A stretch of 64,000 nt of DNA from Skeletonema tropicum (taxonomy: Eukaryota; Bacillariophyta; Thalassiosirophyceae; Thalassiosirales; Thalassiosiraceae): the NCBI GenBank assembly GCA_037178625.1, contig CM074138.1, positions 496,001 through 560,000 of the forward strand. The letters run 5' to 3'. Under the pieces are notes generated by a model. It was not told where the DNA came from. It was given only the letters and a program-made list of their open reading frames with translations, and searched no databases. Each line of letters begins with the position of its first letter. The stretch's first letter is position 1. Position numbers and translations under genes: made by a program. Below, in pieces: positions 14,800 through 28,793 of the stretch.

Positions 14800-16463
14800 T
14801 TAGAAAGCCTGAGACTCATTGCGAGGGTCATGCGAGTAGGTGAGTGCTGAATCCCCAAAATAACCTACACGAACGGGGACATCCCCTCCCTCCATTACAT
14901 TGCCATTGAGTTGGATCATAGTATGATCTGGTTGAGTGATTTCAGATGCGTAGAATCTTCCATCTTGATCAAAAAATTCATTTACCAACTCCCTATCCTG
15001 GCCAAACATATGAAACAAAGCTAGTTTGAGATCGTCATCGCAGTTGAACCAAAAGAAATGGCGACGATGCGCAACAGCAACGGATGAACCCGATGCACCT
15101 CGGATGGTTGTCCCACCAGATGAAAACGCAAGATTGCATGCATCCCAAAACATGCCGATATCATGTTGTCCTGCATTACCCTGAATCGCTTTGTGACAGT
15201 CATCAGGGAGGGGAACCAAAGCCTCAAATTTGACAATTCCGTCGTTATCGACGTACCTAACCACAGTTTTGTGAGAGCCAACATACTTGTACACCTCGAA
15301 AACACCGTTCGGACCAAGGTAAGCGCGCTCCGGCTCGCCAATAGCTGCATTGGAGAGGGAGCGTTCAGGTGAAGTTTGAAGATTGATTGATAGAATTTTG
15401 ACAACTTGGATGTCTCCTTGCTTCTGCTGAGTCGTCGTCGACTGAGTAACATCAACGACATGCTTCCCATCAATCAGCGATGACTGTGGCGAGGTGTCCT
15501 TGAATGCAAACTCTTGTTTCAACATGGCAGAGACAAACTGAGTCCAATTCATCTCGAATGCACCTTGAGCAAGCGCATCGACAGCAGCAGCAGGAACACT
15601 CCTACCACTTCTCGAAATAATGATAAGTTTGGTAACATCGCCTTGGTTGCTCACCATTTTCTTCAACCCGGTAGATCGATCAACATGAACGGCACCAGCG
15701 GCACGTAGCAATACAGAGACTTCGTCTCTCGATGGTCCACTCCCCCCAGTCACACCAGGTGCAACATAAACACACTTTCCAGCAAGAATTCCTCCAAACT
15801 CAAGGGCGGCATTTGCGTTGTCGAGGGTGCTTCTCACAGAGAACGTATGTTCCGTCTCAGCCTTCTCAATCACGCCTGGATAGAGTGAAATGCGAAACCG
15901 ATCAGTTGGAATAAACCTGTTGCTTGCTAAGGACTCCTCGATCCAATCATACACAACAATGTTTGCTGGACATACACAAAGCGCGGCAAGGAGTTTGATG
16001 CGACGAGGCTTCAGCTCATCCCTACCCACAACTAGATGCGTGATTTTGTGCAAGTTATTGATGCCACTTTCACCGACAATAAAGTCTCCACCACGCTGCA
16101 AAATAAACTGTAGAAAAGTTAAAAGAAAAGAGAATCCAGAGGATAAGATGACGCTGGAAAAGAAAAATGAATGAAAGTGTTGTAACGAAGAGAACACACC
16201 TTCCTGACTTCCTCTGATGGTTCAATCCCAGAAAAGGCGACAATAATTTCCTTCGTCCACCCCGAATTAGAGGGTTGGTGCCCTCTTGCCTTTGGTGACA
16301 AATAAGACGAAACTGAAGAAGCAACATTATGAAGAGAGTGGCGGAAGCGGGAGGGCATTCGTCGCACGGAGTTTGCGTTGGACATATTGCTGGTGTTTGT
16401 TGCTTTATCGTCACCTCCTACAACACGCAGATGATCTTTATGCGAGGTAGCAACCCAAAGCAT
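14800..16463 (-). CDS. Tandem BRCT-domain protein (PTIP/MDC1-like arrangement)
   Basis: Exons 16463..16200 and 16095..14800 give 519 aa, joined in frame as EEVRK|RGGDF. A Ser-rich N-terminus is followed by a first BRCT (~72-150: IIVAFSGI, GGDFIV, ITHLVVG, IVVYDWIEESL) and a second (~185-290: GGILAGKCVYVAPGV, DEVSVLLRAAGAVHV, TKLIIISRSG, EMNWTQFVSAMLKQ). The layout of strand-helix-GG-strand-W resembles C-terminal BRCT pairs that bind phosphoserine peptides at DNA breaks. Unlike those, some 200 more residues follow, containing a distinct domain (YLGPNGVFEVYKYVG, HDIGMFWDACNLAF) that I do not recognise. The role is probably DNA-damage or chromatin signalling, by family only. Confidence 0.7.
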
Positions 16464-17874
16464 CCTTTATTTCTTAGTGGATCATGCATGATTGAGGCTA
16501 CACCTACCTCCGCCGGACCTTCCCAGCACAATATATCTCGCCAAAGAAAACATCTTTTTGCAGGCTTCTTCCTACTAGATTGGCGCACCAAAAAACCACC
16601 TAATTGGATAGAAACTTACAGGGGTGATATACTATCTTCCTGGGGTGGATTGGCTGGATTACACCACCTATGCCACCGCCACCATCACCTTTTCCTTCGA
16701 TTTTTTCATTTTCTTTGATTTTTCACGTAGAAAATGGTCGGATTGAACGTAGGAACTCCATACAAAATATCCCTCCAAGGGGGGGCCTTGGAGCTTTGGC
16801 CAAAATGATGGATTTTGGAAAGTGAAGGATAGTGGCTGAAATCGAGCAAATATCACGTGGCTATCACTGCTAATAGACTAGAACCCTCGGGGGCGGTCAT
16901 ATTATGTATATTATGCGTGTAGAAGTGTATTGATGTACCCTTTTTTCACGACACCGAGGGCTGGTTGAAGTTGAAAAAAATTATCTCCACCACGACAACA
17001 CTATGTGAGCGCAACATTCAAAAGCGCAAAGCCCCTGATCGCTTTAGCTAGACGATCTGTCTTCGGTCATGATTTGGAATAACGTATCTACAATCCTAAT
17101 GACTATGGCGTTTATTTCAATCTCGGGAGAAGTACTGCCCGGGCTGGTGTCGACATCTTTCTCTTGTGGGTGGTTGTTCCCCTAACTTTACATCAAGAGG
17201 TTTCCGAAGGGGGAGAGAATAAAATAGACATCGCATCATCAAATGTGTCAATGTGGAACTGGGCAACGCTTAGTCACTCTTCGGTAAACTGGCAAACATT
17301 ATGATCGAGTCCATCTCAATCTAGGGTCGTCAATATTCATACAGCTTCTTCGTATCGCAAAAAGTCAAATTGAAAAGGTACTAGTGTGCCATTTCTTTTG
17401 GTTATGATAAGGTTTTTATTTCGTATTTCAATCTAAATGTGAGGGGGAATACTTCTGGCTTGTCTTCTGTTTCAAAAGAAGAAGTGGCAGCATGAAATCT
17501 TGACAAGAATGTGTGGGACGGGCCAATTGTTTCACGTAAGAATCGCTCATATACTAGGAGCACGAAGAGGCAAGCCCATCTGCGTGTAGAGACTATAACC
17601 TTTTGAATATTGTTGAATTGCAAAGAAGAGAGTTTCCCAATAAAGTTGCCTCATACTTAGGTTGTAGAATGGCGGGTGTTAGAATGGCGGGAGTTGGGCA
17701 TTCATTGAGTCGCACGCCGCACGAAAGAGCCGTTGGTTGCTTGCTTCATCAAAACCCTCTGGCTATCGGTGGCGATGATCTACAATAAAGGTCGAAGGTG
17801 AAAAAGAGGCAATGGAGCGTCCCAGCAACGAACTGTGCATCTGTCAATTCTGACTTGGGATACGACGTAAGAAA
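16464..17874. other. Intergenic, no gene supported
   Basis: Contains a G-rich patch near 16783-16795 inside a small inverted motif (CCAAGG...CCTTGG) and nothing else notable. It was searched as the left flank of the large chimeric gene for terminal inverted repeats that match 23975-25700. None was seen. Confidence 0.4.
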
Positions 17875-20800
17875 ATGGATCGTCTAGATAATCCGAGGAG
17901 GGGGGAAAGTTATTTGGGTGCAATGGCATCTTTGCCACCGTCGTCGCCATCGTCATCTTCATCATCTGATTGCGAGGATATATCTTTTTCTGATGATTTC
18001 AACTATGTGAGGACACCCGCATCATCAAGCACTCGTCTATCCGTTCGCCATGATCCTCCTGCTGCTGTCAAAGTACTGAAGGATGCTAAGAAGAATGCAG
18101 AGTTGGCGTCGTCCAAGGATGGTCGAAATGATGATGAAATCGTTGAGGAAATGTTACTAGATTTGAATGATGGTGTAGATGGAGGGGAGGAGGATGGCTC
18201 GGGGTCTTCACGTCTTAGCTGGGATCAATCTTTAACAGTTATCAGCTCTTCTGAGACGTACACATCATCAAATACTCATGTAGAGTTGGCGTCGTCCAAG
18301 GATAGTCGAAGTGATGATGAAATCGCTGAGGAACAGTTACTAGATTTGAATAGTGTAGATGGAGGGGAAGAGAATGGTTTGGAGTCTTCACGTCCACGTC
18401 TTAGCTGGGATCCATCGTTAACAGTTACCTGCTCTTCTGAGACGTACACATCATCAAATACTCATGTAGAGTTGGCGTCGTCCAAGGATAGTCGAAGTGA
18501 TGATGAAATCGCTGAGGAACAGTTACTAGATTTGAATAGTGTAGATGGAGGGGAGGAGAATGGTTTGGAGTCTTCACGTCGACGTTCACGTCTTAGCTGG
18601 GGTCCAACGACAGCATTTAACAGTCTCACATCATCAAATTCTCACGCAGAGATGGCGTCGTCTGAGGAGGATAGTCGAAGTGATGACGTAATCGCCGAGG
18701 AACAGTTAGAGGATAGTTTGGAGTCTTCACGTCTAAGCTTCGTAGATTTGGACAATCATTGTCCTGAATCGGATTCAGAATCAGAAGGGGGAGAAGGGCA
18801 CCCACTTATCTCGAAAATGAAAGATGGCATGGCAGATGCACTGGTAGATTCCCTTATTGCTGTATTGTCTTTCGAAGCTGTTGTTCTTTCTGTTGTTGAC
18901 TCGAACAAGTATTCATACCGAGTGCAGAGGCTAAAAGGAGGTAACGAGATTTCAATAGAATTGCATCCTGATCAATACGGTGCTGGATGGACAATCACAG
19001 GGAAGAAGAGTAGAAGAGGAGGACGGATTTCAAAGTACAAACGTAGTCAAGATCTGGGAAAAGTCCATGCCACTGGAAGGAGGCAAGGCTCTTCTACTGC
19101 TGCTAAGAAGTCACGTCCCAAGAAGCGATCGTCTCCTTCTTCAAAAAAGCCACGTCCCAATGGGCGACTGCAATCGATGTCTACACCACACACACCAGCA
19201 GTTATGAAACAGAAAAGAACAAAATATAAACATACTCCAAAGGAAGGTTCGAAGAGGCAGAATGATTTGAAGCTTCAATCGAAACATGTAATTCAAAAGA
19301 TTACAAAAGAATGGTTCGGCCCTGAATGTCCAGCATCAACGAGAGTAAGAAGGGTCGCCAAAGCTTTGGGGCCAGCGAACGGAGTCTCGGACAGTAAGTT
19401 TCATCACTTGTTATTCTTTAATGGACACACTTACGCACACGCTCAAATATTTGATGTTTCATTATCACTTTCAATCAGATACACTTAAATCAGTGATGAA
19501 GACCATGTCATATGTTACGAAGGAGGCGAAACCATCAGACAGACGCCAAATTCTATCCCTTTTTTCAGGAACAACAGGAATCTCCAGACGAAAGGCTGAG
19601 GAAATGCTAGGGTATGAAATTTCTCCTTACGAATGGGAAGAGGCTGGGAAGCACTTTCGTTTTCCGGGGCCTCTTGAGCCAGCATCAGTGGCAAAATCCT
19701 CCAGAGAAAAATTCTCAACAGAAGAATTGATGAACCTATTAGGTTACATTGATCAATATCACCTCCAAAGACTAGCATGTGGTAAAAATTCCATCGAGAC
19801 ACCGCATGGTAACATCATTCAGATTGACGCCGTTGAGTCTACCTCTGGTCCTTCAGCTATCGCAAGAAGCTACGCAGACTACGTCAATCCAGCAGGTAAA
19901 ATTTGTGGCGAGAATCAGTGCACAAGAACGCATCATACTACTAGACACTACTGCCTGCGAAAGCGTGGACACGAAGGATGCTGTAAATTCACTCCAGATA
20001 ATGCCCTATCGGCTGAGTCTGTACGTAATATCCTGTCGAACGTGACGAAGGGGAAGCAGAAAAGCTACCAGGGATTAGATGATGAGATGGTGTACAAAGG
20101 GACAAAAAATGTTATGCGATTGCATCAAATTTACGATCTTCTTTCCATTCCCATTGCTGAGAGCGAGATGGATCGTGAAAAAATGAAGGAAAGAATTGAC
20201 AGCATAGGAGACTGGCATAAATCTGGCTTTCCGCACCACTTGAGTCGTCATGGGGATCGTTGCTGCCAGTGCATTTCATGTGGTCTTCATTCAACTGAGG
20301 AGCCGATCGATTGCCACGAGCGTGGTAGCCACAAAGAGCCTTGCTCTCTATGCGAAGATTCGTTCCAGGTGATATCGGACCTCAAGGCACTTGCTCAAAA
20401 GGCACAGGAGAGAGAAGGTCTATCAAGGGCAGAAAAAGAACAAATGGTGGAGCTCGAGGCCGAAATAGACACGTGCCGGCAAAATCTATTCGAGTATCGG
20501 GCCCATATTGTTCGGAAGAAGATAGAGGGAGAGTTTACTCGCGAACAAATTCAGTCCCTGACGGCTTCTGATGCTGTCGTTATTTGTGATTTCAAAATGA
20601 AGATAAACCCACTCTACTTTAGGGAAGCCCAAAAGGACTGGTATGGTAAGAGAGGGGTTGCGTGTTGTGGTTTCTTGGTGTACACCAAGGGTCCGCAAGA
20701 AGGGGAGGTATACGCTGAATACTTCTATTTTTTCTCCGATGATACGTGTCAAGACACAAATATGGTCTTGGCAGCAAAATCATACGTCTATCGTGAGCAC

Positions 20801-23800
20801 CTTCCAACATTATTTCCGGAAGGAACAGCAATTCAAGTTAAATGGGAAACAGATGGAGCTGGGTGCTACAACTCACATCTTTTGAAGGCTTGTCAACCCT
20901 TGTGGCACGCCTGGACAAACGGCCGAGTTGATGAAGTTCAAATAAGACACTCCGAAAATGGAGGTGGAAAGACGTGTCTTGATGGAGGTTTTGGGAAACT
21001 GGCTGCAAACCAAAAAGACATAGTGGCTCGTGGAGAAATGGATATCACCGATGCCAGCTCGTGTCTCTGTGCATTTTACAAAGATACCAGGCCTTCGAGA
21101 AACGCCTCGGCTGCTGTACTTCATGTCCCGAGAGACCATGACCTTAGAATACCAGATGGTTCCGGGGAACCTGCACTCCTCCATTCGCATCGGATTGTAC
21201 TAGAGCGGGAGAAAAACCAAGTTAGATGCTTCAGGAATAGTGGTTATGGTGAAGGTGTAGTGATTTCTTTATCGACCCATGAGAAAATGGTACCAAGCTC
21301 TACGCAAATGCCTCGCTATGAAGTCACGCAGGATACAGGCGCAGACGACAGCAACAGAGAACCTTTGACACACTCCACCGAATCATGTTATGCTAGGAGA
21401 GAAAAGAAGACGAGATCGAGTCAAGCTAAAACGCGAGAGAAAGCGGAAAAAGATTTCAGGGATAGAATTGAGAATGCCGCAGAGAAAGGCATTTTTCTTT
21501 GTCCTTGCCGACGTGAAGACGATTTAGCCCCTTATACAAAAAAGTTCTGCTCAAGGAATGCGCTGGTGAGGCACATGGAGAATGGACAACATAAATACAC
21601 TGGTCGTAACATTACGACGAAGTCGGCGATATTGGTGTCTGGTTTAGGAGGCACTCTTGCGGTTGGACAACGTATGAATCGCAACGAGGAGCATTTCTCA
21701 GGCGAGCATGTGAGAGATGGAGTTGGCACGGGAACCTCCCATGGAACTGAATGGAGAGATCCCGGGTGTTACTTGAAGCCTGGGAGGAGTAAACCGACTC
21801 GGAAATCATTGAGACTGATAACTGAACTGGTCAAGTTATTCAAGCTCGGAGAGAGTGACAGCAGCGAGAGCAAGAGCAGAAATAAGTACACTGCAGAACA
21901 GGCTCTAACAACGCTCAGAGATATGAAAAACCCTAGCGGCATGAGGACGTTCAGTTCCACAAGCGTGTTCGGTCCGTTACCAACACTCCAACAAATCAAG
22001 AGCTTTTGGAGCTCATACAAAAGGTTGAAAGATGATGGGGAGCTGAAGAATGCCGATGACGAAGCGATGTATGAACTCCTAAGTGATAACATTGACAACG
22101 GAGAGGGAGGTCAAGTGAAACTTGTCCGTTTCTTCTTGGATGGTCAATTTGATGACAAACAAGTTGTTAAAGATACCATTGAGTCGATGGGTGGTATTGT
22201 TTTGGACACATATTCGAAGAAGACAGGTGAGGCATTCATGTACTTGCGTGTAATATTTTGTACAGATTCCCTTCTGATTTCATTTTCTTTGTGTAAATCA
22301 AGAATTCATTGTACAGGGAATCAATCCTCGGAAGCAAAGAAAAGATACAAACGACACTGTTCGATATACCAATTGGGATCAACTTCAACGCTTACAACAA
22401 GGGGCAATATTCATGGAGGATCTTGAAGTCAAGCCAATCGATGTAGAATGCTCTCGGAAGTCGACGAAGAGAAAAAGGACTACATCTACATCCTCAAGAA
22501 AGAAACGGTCCAAGGAGACAGAGCTGTCAACTCGGCCACTAGATAACAAGAGATTCTTTTTCGATGGTGACTTTGAGGATATTACTGTTACAAAAGAGAA
22601 AATCGAGCACTTAGGGGGCAAAGTTCTTCAAAGGTGTACAAAACTTACAGGTGAGCTCACATGCTGTGGCTATGTATTGGCTGTTTTTCTTCCGAACTCA
22701 CAGCATTTTTATCGTTCAAATCTCTTCAGACTTCATCGTGCGAGGGGAAAACTCGAAGTATGGTGATGACGTGAAGCTGCCATCGCCGCACGCTAGTTTC
22801 ACAAGCTGGGAAAAAGTGCAACGTCTTCTAGATGGAGATGGGAAAGACTTGAGTGTGGTCCGTAACAACGCACAAGCTGACGCTGCGGATGATCAAGATC
22901 CCCCCATCGGCCTTGCTGGAGCTCCGACTGCTGCAAGGCTGAACAGCAGCACCAATGTGAAAGAGGAAAATCCCGCTAGCAGCACTGCTCGGACTCAGTC
23001 AGTTCAAGATGTGAACGATGAGGCATCCCTGACTCATTCTGACGTCGCAAGTAGAGTTTCTGGGTCGTCTGCGGATCTCATTCCGGGAGAACAAGAACGT
23101 CAAGCACGTGAATCAGCATCGAAATTACTCCGTAAACTCACCCCCGATGAAGCACATATTGTTGAACGTGCTCTATACGGCAAGGGTTTGCCGTCCGAAG
23201 CCCTCGCGTCTCAAGGTGCCGACTCAGTCCAACGTGATTCGATGCAAACACTCCAACCAGGCCAATGGCTCAATGATGAAGTAATCAATTACTTTTTGAA
23301 GAATTGTCTTCCCAAACGTGATGAAATGCTGTGTGCCAAACAACCGGGACGGAAGCGTAGTCATTTCTTTAATTCATTCTTTGTTCAGACCATGTTTGAT
23401 GAGAAGAATGATAACTTCGAATTGAGAGGGCGGTACAATTACGAACATGTACGGAACTGGTCTGACAAAGTTCCAGGCAAAGACATCTTCAATTTGAAAT
23501 ACATTTTCTGTCCTATCAATTTAGATAATATGCATTGGACATCGGCATGTATCTTTATGGAAGAGAAGAAGATACGATACTTTGATTCCAAGGGAGGGTC
23601 GGGTAGGAGTAAGTTGAAGGGATTGTTACAGTATTTGAAGGATGAGTGGATGGCGAAGAAGGGTGAGGAGATGGATGTGAGTGAGTGGGAGTTGGTGGAG
23701 TGTACGGATGATACTCCAAGGCAGCTGAATGGTGAGTCAGAAAATTTGTTATGTTTCGGTCCTCGTTTCAATGATGAGTATAATATCTAACTTTGTTTGC

Positions 23801-23974
23801 TCTATGTCCATCTCACGACTGGTCTTTATATCAGGTTATGACTGTGGAGTATTTACCTGCATGTTTGGAGACTTTGTCACAAAGGATTGTGAACCTGTCT
23901 TCCAGCAAGAGCACATCGATCAGTGCAGAGAGCGCATTGCACTTTCAATTATGAAGAACTGTGCTATTGAGTAA
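17875..23974 (+). CDS. Chimeric protein: acidic repeats, DDE-type transposase-like core, two BRCT domains, Ulp1 SUMO protease
   Basis: Exons 17875..19393, 19479..22226, 22303..22650, 22730..23731 and 23835..23974 give 1,918 aa, all junctions in frame. Residues ~75-285 are four acidic/Ser repeats; a Lys/Arg-rich linker follows. Around 876-1000 lies a RNase-H-like transposase core with DFKMKINP, a second Asp in ETDGAGCYNS, then HSENGGGKTC and DGGFGKLAANQKD. Near 1180 there is a Cys/His cluster (CPCRRED... NALVRHMENGQH) like a C2H2 finger. Two BRCT domains of the DNA-ligase/RFC1 type follow (FFLDGQFDDKQVV...IESMGG and FFFDGDFEDITVT...IEHLGG), each interrupted by an intron after the GG helix. Residues ~1700-1918 form a C48 cysteine protease with GQWLNDEVINYFL, MHWTSACIF, YFDSK, PRQLN and GYDCGVFTC: the His, Asp, Gln and Cys are all present. 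It could be an intact transposase or a domesticated one; no terminal repeats were found. Confidence 0.8.
18100..18720 (+). repeat. Four ~61-residue in-frame tandem repeats in the chimeric gene
   Basis: The unit begins GAGTTGGCGTCGTCCAAGGAT at 18100, 18283 and 18469, and in altered form at 18649, a period of about 180-186 bp that is always a multiple of three. It encodes ELASSKDSRSDDEIAEEQLL and a Ser-Trp stretch. Copies 2 and 3 are almost identical at DNA level, which points to recent unequal exchange. The Asp/Glu/Ser content suggests a disordered, possibly phosphorylated or SUMO-interacting tail. Confidence 0.8.
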
Positions 23975-25720
23975 ATTGTAATGCATGTAATATATGAATT
24001 GTTTATAGTATTGGTAAAACAGCACCTCTTAGTTGAGAAGTTACATGTATAAAATATAGGACTAGAATAGGAGCAGGCACAGTTGAAGACGACGAGTCAA
24101 CTCTCAGGATAAGAAAACACGTGAAACCCTAAGCAGAGTTGCAAGTTGCAACAAACACTTCCACCACAGCTGACAACATAATATTCCCACAATCCCACAA
24201 ATAATTCAATCCCTTTATCACGAGGTTTTTGCAGCTGCACTGATACAATACAGGTATCCCCTCCTCCTCCCGCCCCATCCACGCTTCCGATCATTCACTT
24301 TCAACATCAATTGTTCAACATGTAAATAACTCGCTACTCTCCACCTGATACTGCTGTTTCGATTTGGAATGGCCCTCTAGCATATTATTATTCCCTCCAC
24401 CTGTTTCTCCCCGTATTATCATCCCCTCCACCCTCGTGTGGCCTCGCGATGCCGCTGTTTATGCTGCCGTTTCTATCCATTCAAAGCACAAATTCGTCTC
24501 TTCATCGTTTGTTCTGCGGGAATTTGCTTCTTCCTGAAACAATCAGCTACGATACCATAGCTAATAAACAACAATAGCCGCATCATCAACACCCTTAGGC
24601 AAGAGATGATTGTTTAGTGTTGTGTCCGGTGCAGTACTCCCTCTCTCTATCTAAGAGAGCAAGCGGTTCATGGTGATTGTGGCGTGGGGGTATGATGATG
24701 GGGGGTTTATTATCGCCTCGCCGAATTTTAAAAAAAATAGCAATACCCCCAAAATAGGCCCAAAATTCGAGATTGCTATTGTTGGCCAAATCCATTAGTT
24801 AAGTTAGTGATTAACAATAGGCGGACCGCCCATTTAATAATCTGCGGTCGCTTTTGCTGTAGGTGGAGTGTGGGGCGAGTAATTGAGAGGCAAAGTCAAG
24901 GCCCAGTTCCACTTTTTACCGGATTTTAAGAAAAAAACACTCTTAAGAAACACACAATTTAGGATACATACAACCAGCCCCAGCCAGGTCCTCAAGGTTA
25001 ACCCTAAGCAGTGGGTATAGTACCCTAGGACTCAGTCCCGCGGATGTTTTGCTTTGACTGTCAGATCGTTACCCCGGGGACAAAACGAGTACCTATTGTA
25101 ACTAAGATTTTTTCTTGACCAAAAAAAACATCCGAACTTGACCAACGAAAGGCGAACTCCGACATTTTACCAAGATGGAAACGTCATTACATATATGCAC
25201 GTCAGATCAAGTTTGCCATAGAAGTCCAGTAATTTGTGACTCACACGTCACCGACTTGCGAACTCGTAGCATCAGATAGGAGTGACAAACATAAGGACCA
25301 AAGTCCTGTAAATCACGACTAACAATTTGTCGTCGGAGAAGTAATCATGTAAACATTTTACATAATCCAGGTTCGGTATTCGTATGTAGACTGTGGGTCA
25401 TTCTTTTCCATATTTAAAGTACGAACTTTTACAAATTTTTCAATATCAACGACACTATTGAAGTTAGGTCGAGTGCCATCTTGCAGGTCGAGTGCCATCT
25501 TGCACATTTCTTCTTTCCCAACACTCACATGAAAACTAATTGTGTCTGACTATGTCTTCAGCATTCGTTTTACATACTACTCCTACTGGGTAGAAAAGTT
25601 CCTCAAGTGTTTGTTGAACCTTGCCAAGACACCATGACAACAACAAAGGAAGGAGGTATTCAGAGTTCAGAGGAGTACACCTCATTCAGGTAAACCTCGC
25701 GGAAATCCTTAATCCTGTCC
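23975..25720. other. Intergenic, with a 19-bp direct repeat
   Basis: No gene is supported in this 1.7-kb stretch. AGGTCGAGTGCCATCTTGC occurs twice head to tail at 25466-25503. A poly-A tract lies near 24727-24738 and others near 24930 and 25120. It includes the 3' flank of the chimeric gene and the promoter of the first HMG gene. Confidence 0.5.
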
Positions 25721-26974
25721 ATGAGGTCTAATGAGACGACAACGCACTTCAAAGCATCGTCCTACGCCTATAGGATTGACAAGCAACTGACCATGGAGAA
25801 GCCAAAACGTCCACTAAGTTCGTTCAATCTATTCTACCGTTACAAGCGGTTCCTCGTCACAGGTCAAGGTAACATATCCGAAGAAGCAGTCAAAAGAATA
25901 CTATTTTGTCCAGCTGGGTTAGAAGATGAACTGCTAACACCCTCCAAGTCACATCAAAGTCAACGCAGACCATCCTCCAAAACCAATGAGATACGACGGA
26001 ATAAAATCCGCACCGCACTCGAGGGTAAAATATTACCTTCCACGGACAAGAAGAAGCGACGTCATCGCAAGGCAGAGAATGGTCCCTCAATCAGCTTCGT
26101 TGAAATGGGACGACTGATGACGGAAAGTTGGAAGCATGTCGATCCATTTGCAAGGCAGGTGTTTGATGATCTTGCGGGAGAAGGACGTCAGTTTTACAAG
26201 GATGCTTTGGAGGAGTATACTCGGATGGAAGGACCTGCTAGTGATACAGGAGAAGTCTTAAGAGCTGCTCAGTCGAAAAGCATTTCGACTGAAAAAGTCA
26301 GTGTGCACAAGGTTTCACGAAGCGTCAAGAAGGACACGATGCTTTCGACGAGGTCGCAAGAATCGAGAAGGGTCTCCCAAGCAAGAAGTAGTAGTAGTAA
26401 TGTTGGACTGGAAAGTGTGAAATTGCCTAGAACGAATAACACGGCTAGCCAAGCTGGCTCAAATCCTGAATACACATCGAGGGCATTTCAAAATTCGGGC
26501 TTTTCTCCCGCTCCCGCTCCCGCTCCTGAATCATCCGGGACGCGGTCTACTGGTAACTATCATCAGTTTCCAACGCAGTCGTTTCAGGTAGAGGACCAGC
26601 TGCTCCTTCCACAGCCGAATCATCAACCACAACAGTTGTATCACCAGCAGCAATATCACCAATACCTTCAGCGGCAGCAGCTGCAGCAAGAAGGAAATAA
26701 TCATGATGCCAATTTGCATCAAATGCATCATGATGCCAATTTGCATCAAATGCATCATGATGCGTACAGTACAAGTATTGATGTCCTTTCTCATCTAGCT
26801 TCGCCACGTCGCATCATTTCAAGAAGCGCTGCAACAGGAGGAGGAGGAGGAAGAGATAATGGTCAACATGCTGGGGTAGATCATAATGATTTTTTTGCTG
26901 AAAACCCGGCGGATCTAAATTTGCAAAATGAGGATATCAAGACGTTCTTCGATGCAGTAGATCGAAGGAATTAG
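25721..26974 (+). CDS. HMG-box protein with an insertion inside the box, tandem copy 1
   Basis: A single exon of 417 aa. The box begins at ~26 (KPKRPLSSFNLFYRYKRF), is interrupted by ~75 basic residues ending KKKRRHRK, and resumes ISFVEMGRLMTESWKHVDPFARQVFDDLAGEGRQFYKDALEEY. The two parts match helix 1 and helices 2-3 of the HMG fold, which bends DNA non-specifically. A Ser/Lys linker and a Gln/His-rich C-terminal half follow, suggesting a transcriptional or architectural factor. The alternative start MEKPKRP at residue 25 is possible. Compared with copy 2 it has an extra APAP and a second DANLHQMHH unit. Confidence 0.85.
   Translation: MRSNETTTHFKASSYAYRIDKQLTMEKPKRPLSSFNLFYRYKRFLVTGQGNISEEAVKRILFCPAGLEDELLTPSKSHQSQRRPSSKTNEIRRNKIRTALEGKILPSTDKKKRRHRKAENGPSISFVEMGRLMTESWKHVDPFARQVFDDLAGEGRQFYKDALEEYTRMEGPASDTGEVLRAAQSKSISTEKVSVHKVSRSVKKDTMLSTRSQESRRVSQARSSSSNVGLESVKLPRTNNTASQAGSNPEYTSRAFQNSGFSPAPAPAPESSGTRSTGNYHQFPTQSFQVEDQLLLPQPNHQPQQLYHQQQYHQYLQRQQLQQEGNNHDANLHQMHHDANLHQMHHDAYSTSIDVLSHLASPRRIISRSAATGGGGGRDNGQHAGVDHNDFFAENPADLNLQNEDIKTFFDAVDRRN
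26700..26756 (+). repeat. 27-bp tandem duplication within HMG copy 1
   Basis: ATGATGCCAATTTGCATCAA followed by ATGCATC is present twice in a row here and once in the second gene copy. It adds nine residues (DANLHQMHH) in frame. The arrangement dates the change to after the gene duplication, either as gain in copy 1 or loss in copy 2. Confidence 0.85.
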
Positions 26975-27578
26975 ATGCTCTTGTACGTAATGTTGTGGCA
27001 ATGGCACCATCAAGAATCGTGAGAAATTGGTCGAACTATTTCATTGATTGAATGGCGGATATCACCAGAATGCTGAGAAATTGATCGACGTTGTTCGGTT
27101 GATTGAATTTGAAATGCTGTATATGCATGTTCAGGAACAAAGTACAGGTTACTCTTGGGACTTGGGACATGATAACTATGCATTTAAGATAAAGCATTAT
27201 CTCTGATCAGTACGGATGCCTTTCTAGTCTTTTGCTTGACAGTATTTAGCATAATAATGATGTCGTTTGCAAGAAACAATTGATGAAACGGACGGGATGC
27301 CAGCTCAGCTTCTGCAAATCATTTGTCGTGTCGTCTTCGTCTACTCTCGAACTAAGTGTACACGTTACTTAATGGGCACGAAAGAAGAGGATCGCATAAT
27401 CTATTTACAGGAACTATCTGACACATACACCCCTGCACTGTAGAGGATGCAAATCAAAGCAGAGTTGTTCGGAGGGAACGAGGAGTAAACCTCATCGCTC
27501 AGGTAAACCTCGCGGAAATCCTTAAGTACTCGGAAATCAGATCAGATCGAATAAATTGACTTATCCATTGTCCTGTCC

Positions 27579-28793
27579 ATGAGGTCTAATGAGACGACAA
27601 CGCACTTCAAAGCATCGTCCTACGCCTATAGGATTGACAAGCAACTGACCATGGAGAAGCCAAAACGTCCACTAAGTTCGTTCAATCTATTCTACCGTTA
27701 CAAGCGGTTCCTCGTCACAGGTCAAGGTAACATATCCGAAGAAGCAGTCAAAAGAATACTATTTTGTCCAGCTGGGTTAGAAGATGAACTGCTAACACCC
27801 TCCAAGTCACATCAAAGTCAACGCAGACCATCCTCCAAAACCAATGAGATACGACGGAATAAAATCCGCACCGCACTCGAGGGTAAAATATTACCTTCCA
27901 CGGACAAGAAGAAGCGACGTCATCGCAAGGCAGAGAATGGTCCCTCCATCAGCTTCGTTGAAATGGGACGACTGATGACGGAAAGTTGGAAGCACGTCGA
28001 TCCATTTGCAAGGCAGGTGTTTGATGATCTTGCGGGAGAAGGACGTCAGTTTTACGAGGATGCTTTGGAGGAGTATACGCGGATGGAAGGACCTGCTAGT
28101 GGTACAGGAGAAGCCTTAAGAGCTGCTCAGTCGAAAAGCATTTCGGCTGAAAAAGTCAGTGTGCACAAGGTTTCACGAAGCGTCAAGAAGGACACGATGC
28201 TGTCGACGAAGTCGCAGGAATCGAGAAGGGTCTCCCAAGCAAGTAGTAGTAATGGTGGACTGGACAGTGTGAAATTGCCTAGAACGTATAACACGGCTAG
28301 CCAAGCTGGCTCAAATCCTGAATACACATCGAGGGCATTTCAAAATTCGGGCTTTTCTCCCGCTCCCGCTCCCGAATCATCCGGGACGCGGTCTACTGGT
28401 AACTATCATCAGTTTCCAACGCAGTCGTTTCAGGTAGAGGACCAGCTGCTCCTTCCACAGCCGAATCATCAACCACAACAGTTGTATCATCAGCAGCAAT
28501 ATCACCAATACCTTCAGCGGCAGCAGCTGCAGCAAGAAGGAAATAATCATGATGCCAATTTGCATCAAATGCATCATAATGCGTACAGTGCAAGTATTGA
28601 TGTCCTTTCTCATCTAGCTTCGCCACGTCGCATCATTTCAAGAAGCGCTGCAACAGGAGGAGGAGGAGGAAGAGATAATGGTCAACATGCTGGGGTAGAT
28701 CATAATGATTTTTATGCTGAAAACCCGGCGGATCTAAATTTGCAAAATGAGGATATCAAGACGTTCTTCGATGCAGTAGATCGAAGGAATTAG
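27579..28793 (+). CDS. HMG-box protein with an insertion inside the box, tandem copy 2
   Basis: A single exon of 404 aa. It is identical to copy 1 for about the first 160 residues apart from K/E near 160, then has scattered substitutions (DTGEVL/GTGEAL, STE/SAE, RTNNT/RTYNT, FFAEN/YAEN) and two in-frame length changes. Its 5' flank has an insertion of about 50 bp, between TCCTTAA and TCCTGTCC, that copy 1 lacks. That could alter its promoter. Both copies keep full frames, so both may be active. Confidence 0.85.
   Translation: MRSNETTTHFKASSYAYRIDKQLTMEKPKRPLSSFNLFYRYKRFLVTGQGNISEEAVKRILFCPAGLEDELLTPSKSHQSQRRPSSKTNEIRRNKIRTALEGKILPSTDKKKRRHRKAENGPSISFVEMGRLMTESWKHVDPFARQVFDDLAGEGRQFYEDALEEYTRMEGPASGTGEALRAAQSKSISAEKVSVHKVSRSVKKDTMLSTKSQESRRVSQASSSNGGLDSVKLPRTYNTASQAGSNPEYTSRAFQNSGFSPAPAPESSGTRSTGNYHQFPTQSFQVEDQLLLPQPNHQPQQLYHQQQYHQYLQRQQLQQEGNNHDANLHQMHHNAYSASIDVLSHLASPRRIISRSAATGGGGGRDNGQHAGVDHNDFYAENPADLNLQNEDIKTFFDAVDRRN

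Follow-up and report, generated by a model that had tools for sequence, protein, structure and literature searches.

Does a gene that joins a transposase-like core, two BRCT domains, and a SUMO protease in one protein belong to a mobile element, or has a transposase been put to use by its host, and were the three parts brought together in one event? We addressed this question for a locus of the diatom Skeletonema tropicum, using a window of 64,000 nucleotides (assembly GCA_037178625.1, contig CM074138.1, forward-strand positions 496,001 to 560,000), which gives the coordinates used below. A sequence-only reading had proposed that all three parts lie in a single protein of 1,918 residues, and this was borne out by a five-exon frame, Pfam matches for the C48 and BRCT domains, and a structural model of the core. 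At a probability of about one half, we regard the gene as encoding a single-copy, domesticated nuclear protein of diatoms that is derived from a DDD transposase, in which the core would still cut or join DNA, the BRCTs would dock partners, and a captured protease would remove SUMO.

The gene occupies positions 17875-23974 of the plus strand, and predicted splicing of its five exons yields 1,918 amino acids and a stop codon in a single intact frame. The four introns (85, 76, 79, and 103 nt), whose splice sites were assigned from sequence alone, are all of the GT-AG type and keep the frame, so that no frame break is found and the gene is open throughout, as first described. Exons 2 and 4 each lie inside a long uninterrupted open frame, and the acceptor at 22303 gives exon 3 in frame and restores the BRCT sequence. 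The features of the gene are as follows.

17875-19393, plus strand: exon 1, an open frame with a GTAAGT donor, encoding an acidic, Ser-rich N-terminus and then a basic linker
18099-18585, plus strand: in-frame tandem repeat of 186 nt (62 aa) in the acidic N-terminus, 2.6 copies by TRF
19479-22226, plus strand: exon 2, encoding the transposase-like core, Cys/His modules, and then the first half of BRCT1
20264-20353, plus strand: Cys/His cluster (C769, C771, C774, C785, H791, C795, C798), a putative zinc-binding module
20570-21028, plus strand: RNase H-like catalytic core with the candidate triad D877 (20588-20590), D965 (20852-20854), and D1008 (20981-20983)
22124-22226, plus strand: first half of BRCT1 within exon 2 (BRCT_2, PF16589, residues 1389-1426), aligned in nine relatives
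22303-22650, plus strand: exon 3, encoding the second half of BRCT1, a basic linker, and the first part of BRCT2
22533-22650, plus strand: exon 3 part of BRCT2 (PF00533 stretch, residues 1500-1549), running on into 22730-22761
22730-23731, plus strand: exon 4, encoding the remainder of BRCT2, a linker, and most of the C48 domain
23263-23731, plus strand: exon 4 part of the Peptidase C48 domain (Ulp1/SENP1 type), with His1807, Asp1824, and Gln1870
23835-23974, plus strand: exon 5, encoding the end of the C48 domain with Cys1876, and the stop codon

A Pfam scan of the whole protein at E ≤ 10 returned four rows in all, and no family was matched at this threshold by the N-terminus encoded in exon 1. 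The copies of the 186-nt repeat within it are up to 97% alike, and the repeat is a recent expansion. Within this region the motif LLDLN occurs in an acidic setting at residues 94, 155, and 217; going by the consensus alone, these motifs look SIM-like (SUMO-interaction).

Exon 2 is matched by 14 proteins, the closest of which, from Skeletonema dohrnii, is 83% identical, while the remaining 13 share 36–63% identity and come mostly from metagenome assemblies. These 14 relatives and the fusion protein make up the 15 rows of alignment A1. When A1 was used to scan viral and prokaryotic contigs, 59 and 98 stretches, respectively, matched the pattern, none of which encodes a relative. The whole 1,918-aa protein as query gave, for residues 500-1600, a single weak match to P0016 (24% over 34% of the query, 1,123 aa), which is related more distantly (HHalign probability 99%).

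A profile search against DDE families had been suggested as a check on the transposase-like region at residues 850-1200. No Pfam family was matched over its cut-off by the core, either in the fusion protein or in the nine relatives scanned. The fusion protein has no row at E ≤ 10 for rve, the Gypsy-integrase-like DDE family, and although Pfam contains a KDZ (Kyakuja-Dileera-Zisupton) model, none of the four rows is of the KDZ family. A search of PDB sequences with the A1 profile likewise gave no match for the core and one zinc-finger row. The AlphaFold model of the core, on the other hand, has the RNase H-like integrase topology (beta1-2-3-alpha-beta4-alpha-beta5-alpha), and the 50 matches that VIA-align listed for it consist entirely of integrases and mariner-type transposases. 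Foldseek alone gave no match at E ≤ 0.001 behind this assignment: against the PDB, Argonautes ranked at the top with E above 0.001, and the comparison with BFVD was uninformative, its one match at E ≤ 0.001 being an unnamed 203-aa protein (6.6e-4), followed at weaker E by a mixture that includes RNase H and DDE proteins. In the model, the three candidate catalytic aspartates sit on strand beta1, past beta4, and on the helix that follows beta5, and they are identical in 16 of 16 aligned rows. By predicted fold and acidic triad, the core would thus be of the RNase H-like DDE/DDD transposase-integrase type, in agreement with the original description, and, having no Pfam match, it could represent a transposase group of its own. 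The Cys/His cluster upstream, which is probably a zinc-binding module, is invariant in all 15 rows of A1. Proteins similar to the core may occur in animals and oomycetes as well.

The most serious rival to domestication is an intact, low-copy DNA transposon from a family without a Pfam model, in which a BRCT-bearing transposase would have taken up the host's ULP1, in this lineage, to counter SUMO-linked control. The invariance of the DDD residues, the predicted integrase/transposase-like fold, and the diversity of the mostly metagenomic relatives all fit this explanation, as do the presence of multi-copy C48-carrying elements in the same genome and the Ulp1 domains described in sections of the literature on Ginger1 and Crypton elements (PMC2836005, PMC3212892). 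Against it stands the count of genome copies, which the sequence-only reading had called for. Judged by the best-scoring candidates, the core is present at one locus in the 78.4 Mb assembly, a result that was the same with relatives of 36% and 40% identity as queries, and no further copies or fragments were found among the best candidates scored. In line with the sequence-only reading, an ungapped search within 14800-17874 and 23975-27500 revealed no terminal inverted repeats above chance: of 40 near-doublet-preserving shuffles, 19 scored at least as high as the best inverted pair straddling the gene (13 nt, score 13.0). Each of the 14 relatives belongs to a small cluster of one to six members, and a full-frame relative of 83% identity in another species would fit vertical descent better than a transposition burst.

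The sequence at 16500-17900 occurs once in the genome. That at 23900-25700 has one full-length occurrence, and its partial matches correspond to a 194-bp repeat and to the protease-coding end, the latter being matched by ULP1 and 14 Ginger1-like places. The dispersed 194-bp repeat lies at 24754-24948, ~780 bp past the gene, and has 14 further copies at 99–100% and five at 77%. Palindromes around the gene were considered as terminal repeats and rejected. Of the 28 frames of at least 200 aa in the window, 10 were scanned with Pfam; the families found were COG7, HMG-box, MOSC, short-chain dehydrogenase, Nodulin-like/MFS, and RPE65, and two frames were unmatched. Two adjacent HMG-box genes of similar length (25721-26974 and 27579-28793) are apparently a tandem duplication. 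These surroundings are an ordinary gene neighbourhood, which, together with the single locus and repeats at the level of shuffled sequence, is more in keeping with a domesticated gene present once than with an active transposon. Both origins put forward in the sequence-only reading, a new transposon or a domesticated factor, were reasonable, and the evidence leans to the second because one locus was found for the core, the gene has no terminal repeats above chance, its frame is intact, and its S. dohrnii relative is 83% identical. We therefore consider the transposon possible, at clearly less than even odds.

Downstream of the core, the Pfam scan of the whole protein matched PF00533 (BRCT) in two stretches, the best at residues 1500-1549 (E 6.2e-7, 30.0 bits against a cut-off of 21.3), and PF16589 at residues 1389-1426 with an E of 9e-4, under its own cut-off. 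A genome search with PF00533 gave 17 matches, the fusion gene's own BRCTs not among them, and such a search cannot count BRCT proteins because introns split BRCTs, as in this gene. Five rows of A1 end before the BRCT region (P0003, P0012, P0013, P0014, and P0015), and BRCT-like sequence follows the core in 10 of the 10 rows that reach this point, namely the fusion protein and nine relatives. When nine relatives were scanned with Pfam, BRCT was over its cut-off in P0004 (E 5e-6) and P0011 (E 2e-5), weak in P0006 (0.07) and P0010 (0.11), and without a row in five (P0007, P0008, P0009, P0015, and P0016). Three of the last five, P0007, P0008, and P0009, were counted as BRCT-like by alignment, and P0015 stops too early. 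The BRCTs of the fusion protein, used as query, also match P0002 and P0005. Several relatives appear to be truncated inside the BRCT, at the intron position that splits the BRCT of the fusion gene; P0004 extends into the beginning of a second BRCT. The distant P0016 continues well beyond its core with no BRCT match in Pfam, so the pairing of core and BRCT, as judged from these alignments, is common to the close family and was not found beyond it.

The best PDB sequence matches of the two BRCTs are those of RFC1 and NAD-dependent DNA ligase, which are weak (E 0.23-0.74), and weak RFC1/ligase rows were also obtained with the A1 profile (E 0.25-1.3). This resemblance bears on a special form of the domestication hypothesis, with odds that overlap those of the general one, in which a transposase-derived genome-maintenance nuclease is brought to DNA breaks by its BRCTs; the sequence-only reading had suggested guidance to breaks for the transposase of a new transposon family. 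The head-to-head neighbour of the gene (14800 to ~16466, minus strand, its first exon inferred, with ~1.4 kb between the genes) encodes a tandem-BRCT protein that resembles the human PTIP BRCT pair (3sqd, E 1e-4; in Pfam, only BRCT_2 at E 0.22), and a functional link between the two genes is possible, but their adjacency may be chance. In BRCTs of the RFC1/ligase type, phosphate is bound by the Thr/Ser of a (T/S)-G motif in the first strand. Asp replaces this Thr in both BRCTs of the fusion protein, and the corresponding position in the first BRCT of the relatives is Asp or Asn in eight of nine, with Thr in P0010. Going by this motif, neither BRCT would be of the phosphate-binding type, and because both differ from the ligase and RFC1 domains they match in having Asp for Thr, guidance to breaks is left without support. 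We regard this form as improbable.

The protease domain matches Pfam C48 at residues 1717-1913 (E 2.1e-34). Alignment to SENP1 showed that His1807, Asp1824, Gln1870, and Cys1876 are all present, in keeping with the sequence-only reading; we take His1807, Asp1824, and Cys1876 to be the catalytic triad and Gln1870 to be the oxyanion residue. Beside Asp1824, at residue 1826 (23590-23592), the fusion protease reads DSK, where P0017, the host ULP1, and most of the relatives compared read DSM or DSL; the difference is either particular to this gene or an error in the assembly. C48 was matched at no fewer than 144 places in the genome; a stand-alone ULP1 gene located on C7 (L016) is the closest of them to the fusion protease, with 75% identity over a tblastn match that includes the linker and 85% over 259 aligned codons. 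The next relatives in the genome are a Ginger1-like multi-copy element (~49%) and reverse-transcriptase elements (~30–35%). For a quick tree, 125 sequences were gathered, drawing on the best 120 of 345 protein matches, and 114 passed a length filter that dropped 11; the fusion protease groups with P0017 (SH-aLRT 98), then with P0018 (94), and then with the host ULP1 (99). The fusion gene and L016 also have in common their last intron, directly before the catalytic Cys. Between the two proteases, dN is 0.09-0.10 and dS is 0.84-0.95, a dN/dS of ~0.1, and the captured protease has been under constraint since its capture, as free drift would be expected to give a several-fold higher dN.

Other C48-bearing elements were observed in the same genome. 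One (L027 380-7747; G000:C2:5100600-5109500) is a single 2,455-aa frame with an endonuclease, a reverse transcriptase (E 5e-5, under the Pfam cut-off in the one copy scanned), and C48; open frames of ~2,464 aa recur many times among the genomic C48 matches, and this Ulp1-bearing retroelement seems to be abundant. The Ginger1-like element (L017-L020 and L025; e.g., L019 982-7074) carries an rve integrase (E 1e-4, under the cut-off in the one copy scanned), C48, and a separate Tudor-domain frame, and its C48 end is common to 14 places.

The grouping with a stand-alone ULP1, the shared last intron, and the dN/dS of ~0.1, taken with a BRCT that is common to the close relatives of the core, suggest that the protease was taken from the host's ULP1 only after core and BRCT had been paired, whereas the sequence-only reading treated the parts as one event. 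Not every family member has the protease: P0011, a relative of 36% identity, ends after one complete BRCT. The search for other proteins with all three parts, also proposed at the outset, found no second one among the proteins searched, an absence that is weak because many database entries look like single-exon frames. That a transposase-BRCT gene and an adjacent ULP1 copy only seem to be fused, for which the early end of P0011 and the different sequence upstream of the protease in P0018 (which, after P0017, comes closest to the fusion protease, at ~90%) might speak, is very unlikely, since exon 4's single uninterrupted 391-codon frame covers the latter half of BRCT2, a linker, and the greater part of C48, independently of any predicted splice, the same exon 4 with the same join is carried at 99% identity by P0017 from a public assembly, and all four GT-AG introns keep the frame.

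In the domesticated protein that we favor, the core would bind DNA and cut or join it at chosen places, and the Cys/His modules and basic linker would add to DNA binding. The BRCTs would hold replication or repair partner proteins, and the captured protease would strip SUMO from the fusion protein or from partner proteins at the same site, so that the complex would be released or the DNA ends would pass to repair; the fusion protein may in this way free itself from SUMO. A broader and doubtful proposal is that the gene represents an undescribed diatom recombinase family with a DDD core and BRCT, which annexed a host SUMO protease in one lineage and became a domesticated enzyme of programmed DNA rearrangement or genome maintenance. 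If this were true, one protein would cut DNA, dock to the repair or replication machinery, and control its own SUMO state. Transposases with SUMO proteases are already known, and their purpose is unsettled. Because a likely donor of the protease can be pointed to in this genome, its capture can be dated to after the union of core and BRCT, and constraint has acted on it since, the question becomes testable in one gene.

No paper combining transposase, Ulp1, and BRCT, and none on a domesticated fusion of BRCT and transposable element, was found in a literature search, and no transposase core with a BRCT partner was met among the titles and abstract openings listed. By term counts, neither BRCT nor Ulp1 nor C48 occurs in the main text of a screen of eukaryotic proteins for co-occurring transposon domains (PMC12062965). 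Ulp1 domains are described in parts of two papers for Ginger1, Mutator, and Crypton elements (PMC2836005, PMC3212892), and in the former a role for them is only proposed. The Ginger1 DNA transposons carry Ulp1 at the C-terminus (Bao et al. 2010, PMC2836005), and like them the fusion protein combines an RNase H-like recombinase with a C-terminal C48. Unlike them, it has no rve match at E ≤ 10 and has two BRCTs, of which the sections of PMC2836005 on Ginger1 make no note; for Ginger1 that paper lists copy numbers and TIRs in tables, whereas the fusion gene has one copy and no TIR. C48 is also encoded by some Crypton elements, from oomycetes and from a diatom, and these stramenopile mobile elements are alike in having an Ulp1-type protease, but the passages on them in PMC3212892 give a tyrosine recombinase, where the fusion protein has a predicted RNase H-like DDD core. 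The BRCTs differ from those of RFC1 and NAD-dependent DNA ligase, their best PDB matches, in having Asp for Thr in the TG motif. Metnase/SETMAR is a mariner transposase fused to a host domain (SET); no sequence relation to it was detected, and the partners here are BRCT and C48 rather than SET. The likeness to SENP1, SENP2, and Ulp1 lies in a C48 domain with an E of 2e-34 to SENP1 chains and with its catalytic residues kept, but here that domain is embedded in a transposase-BRCT protein of 1,918 residues.
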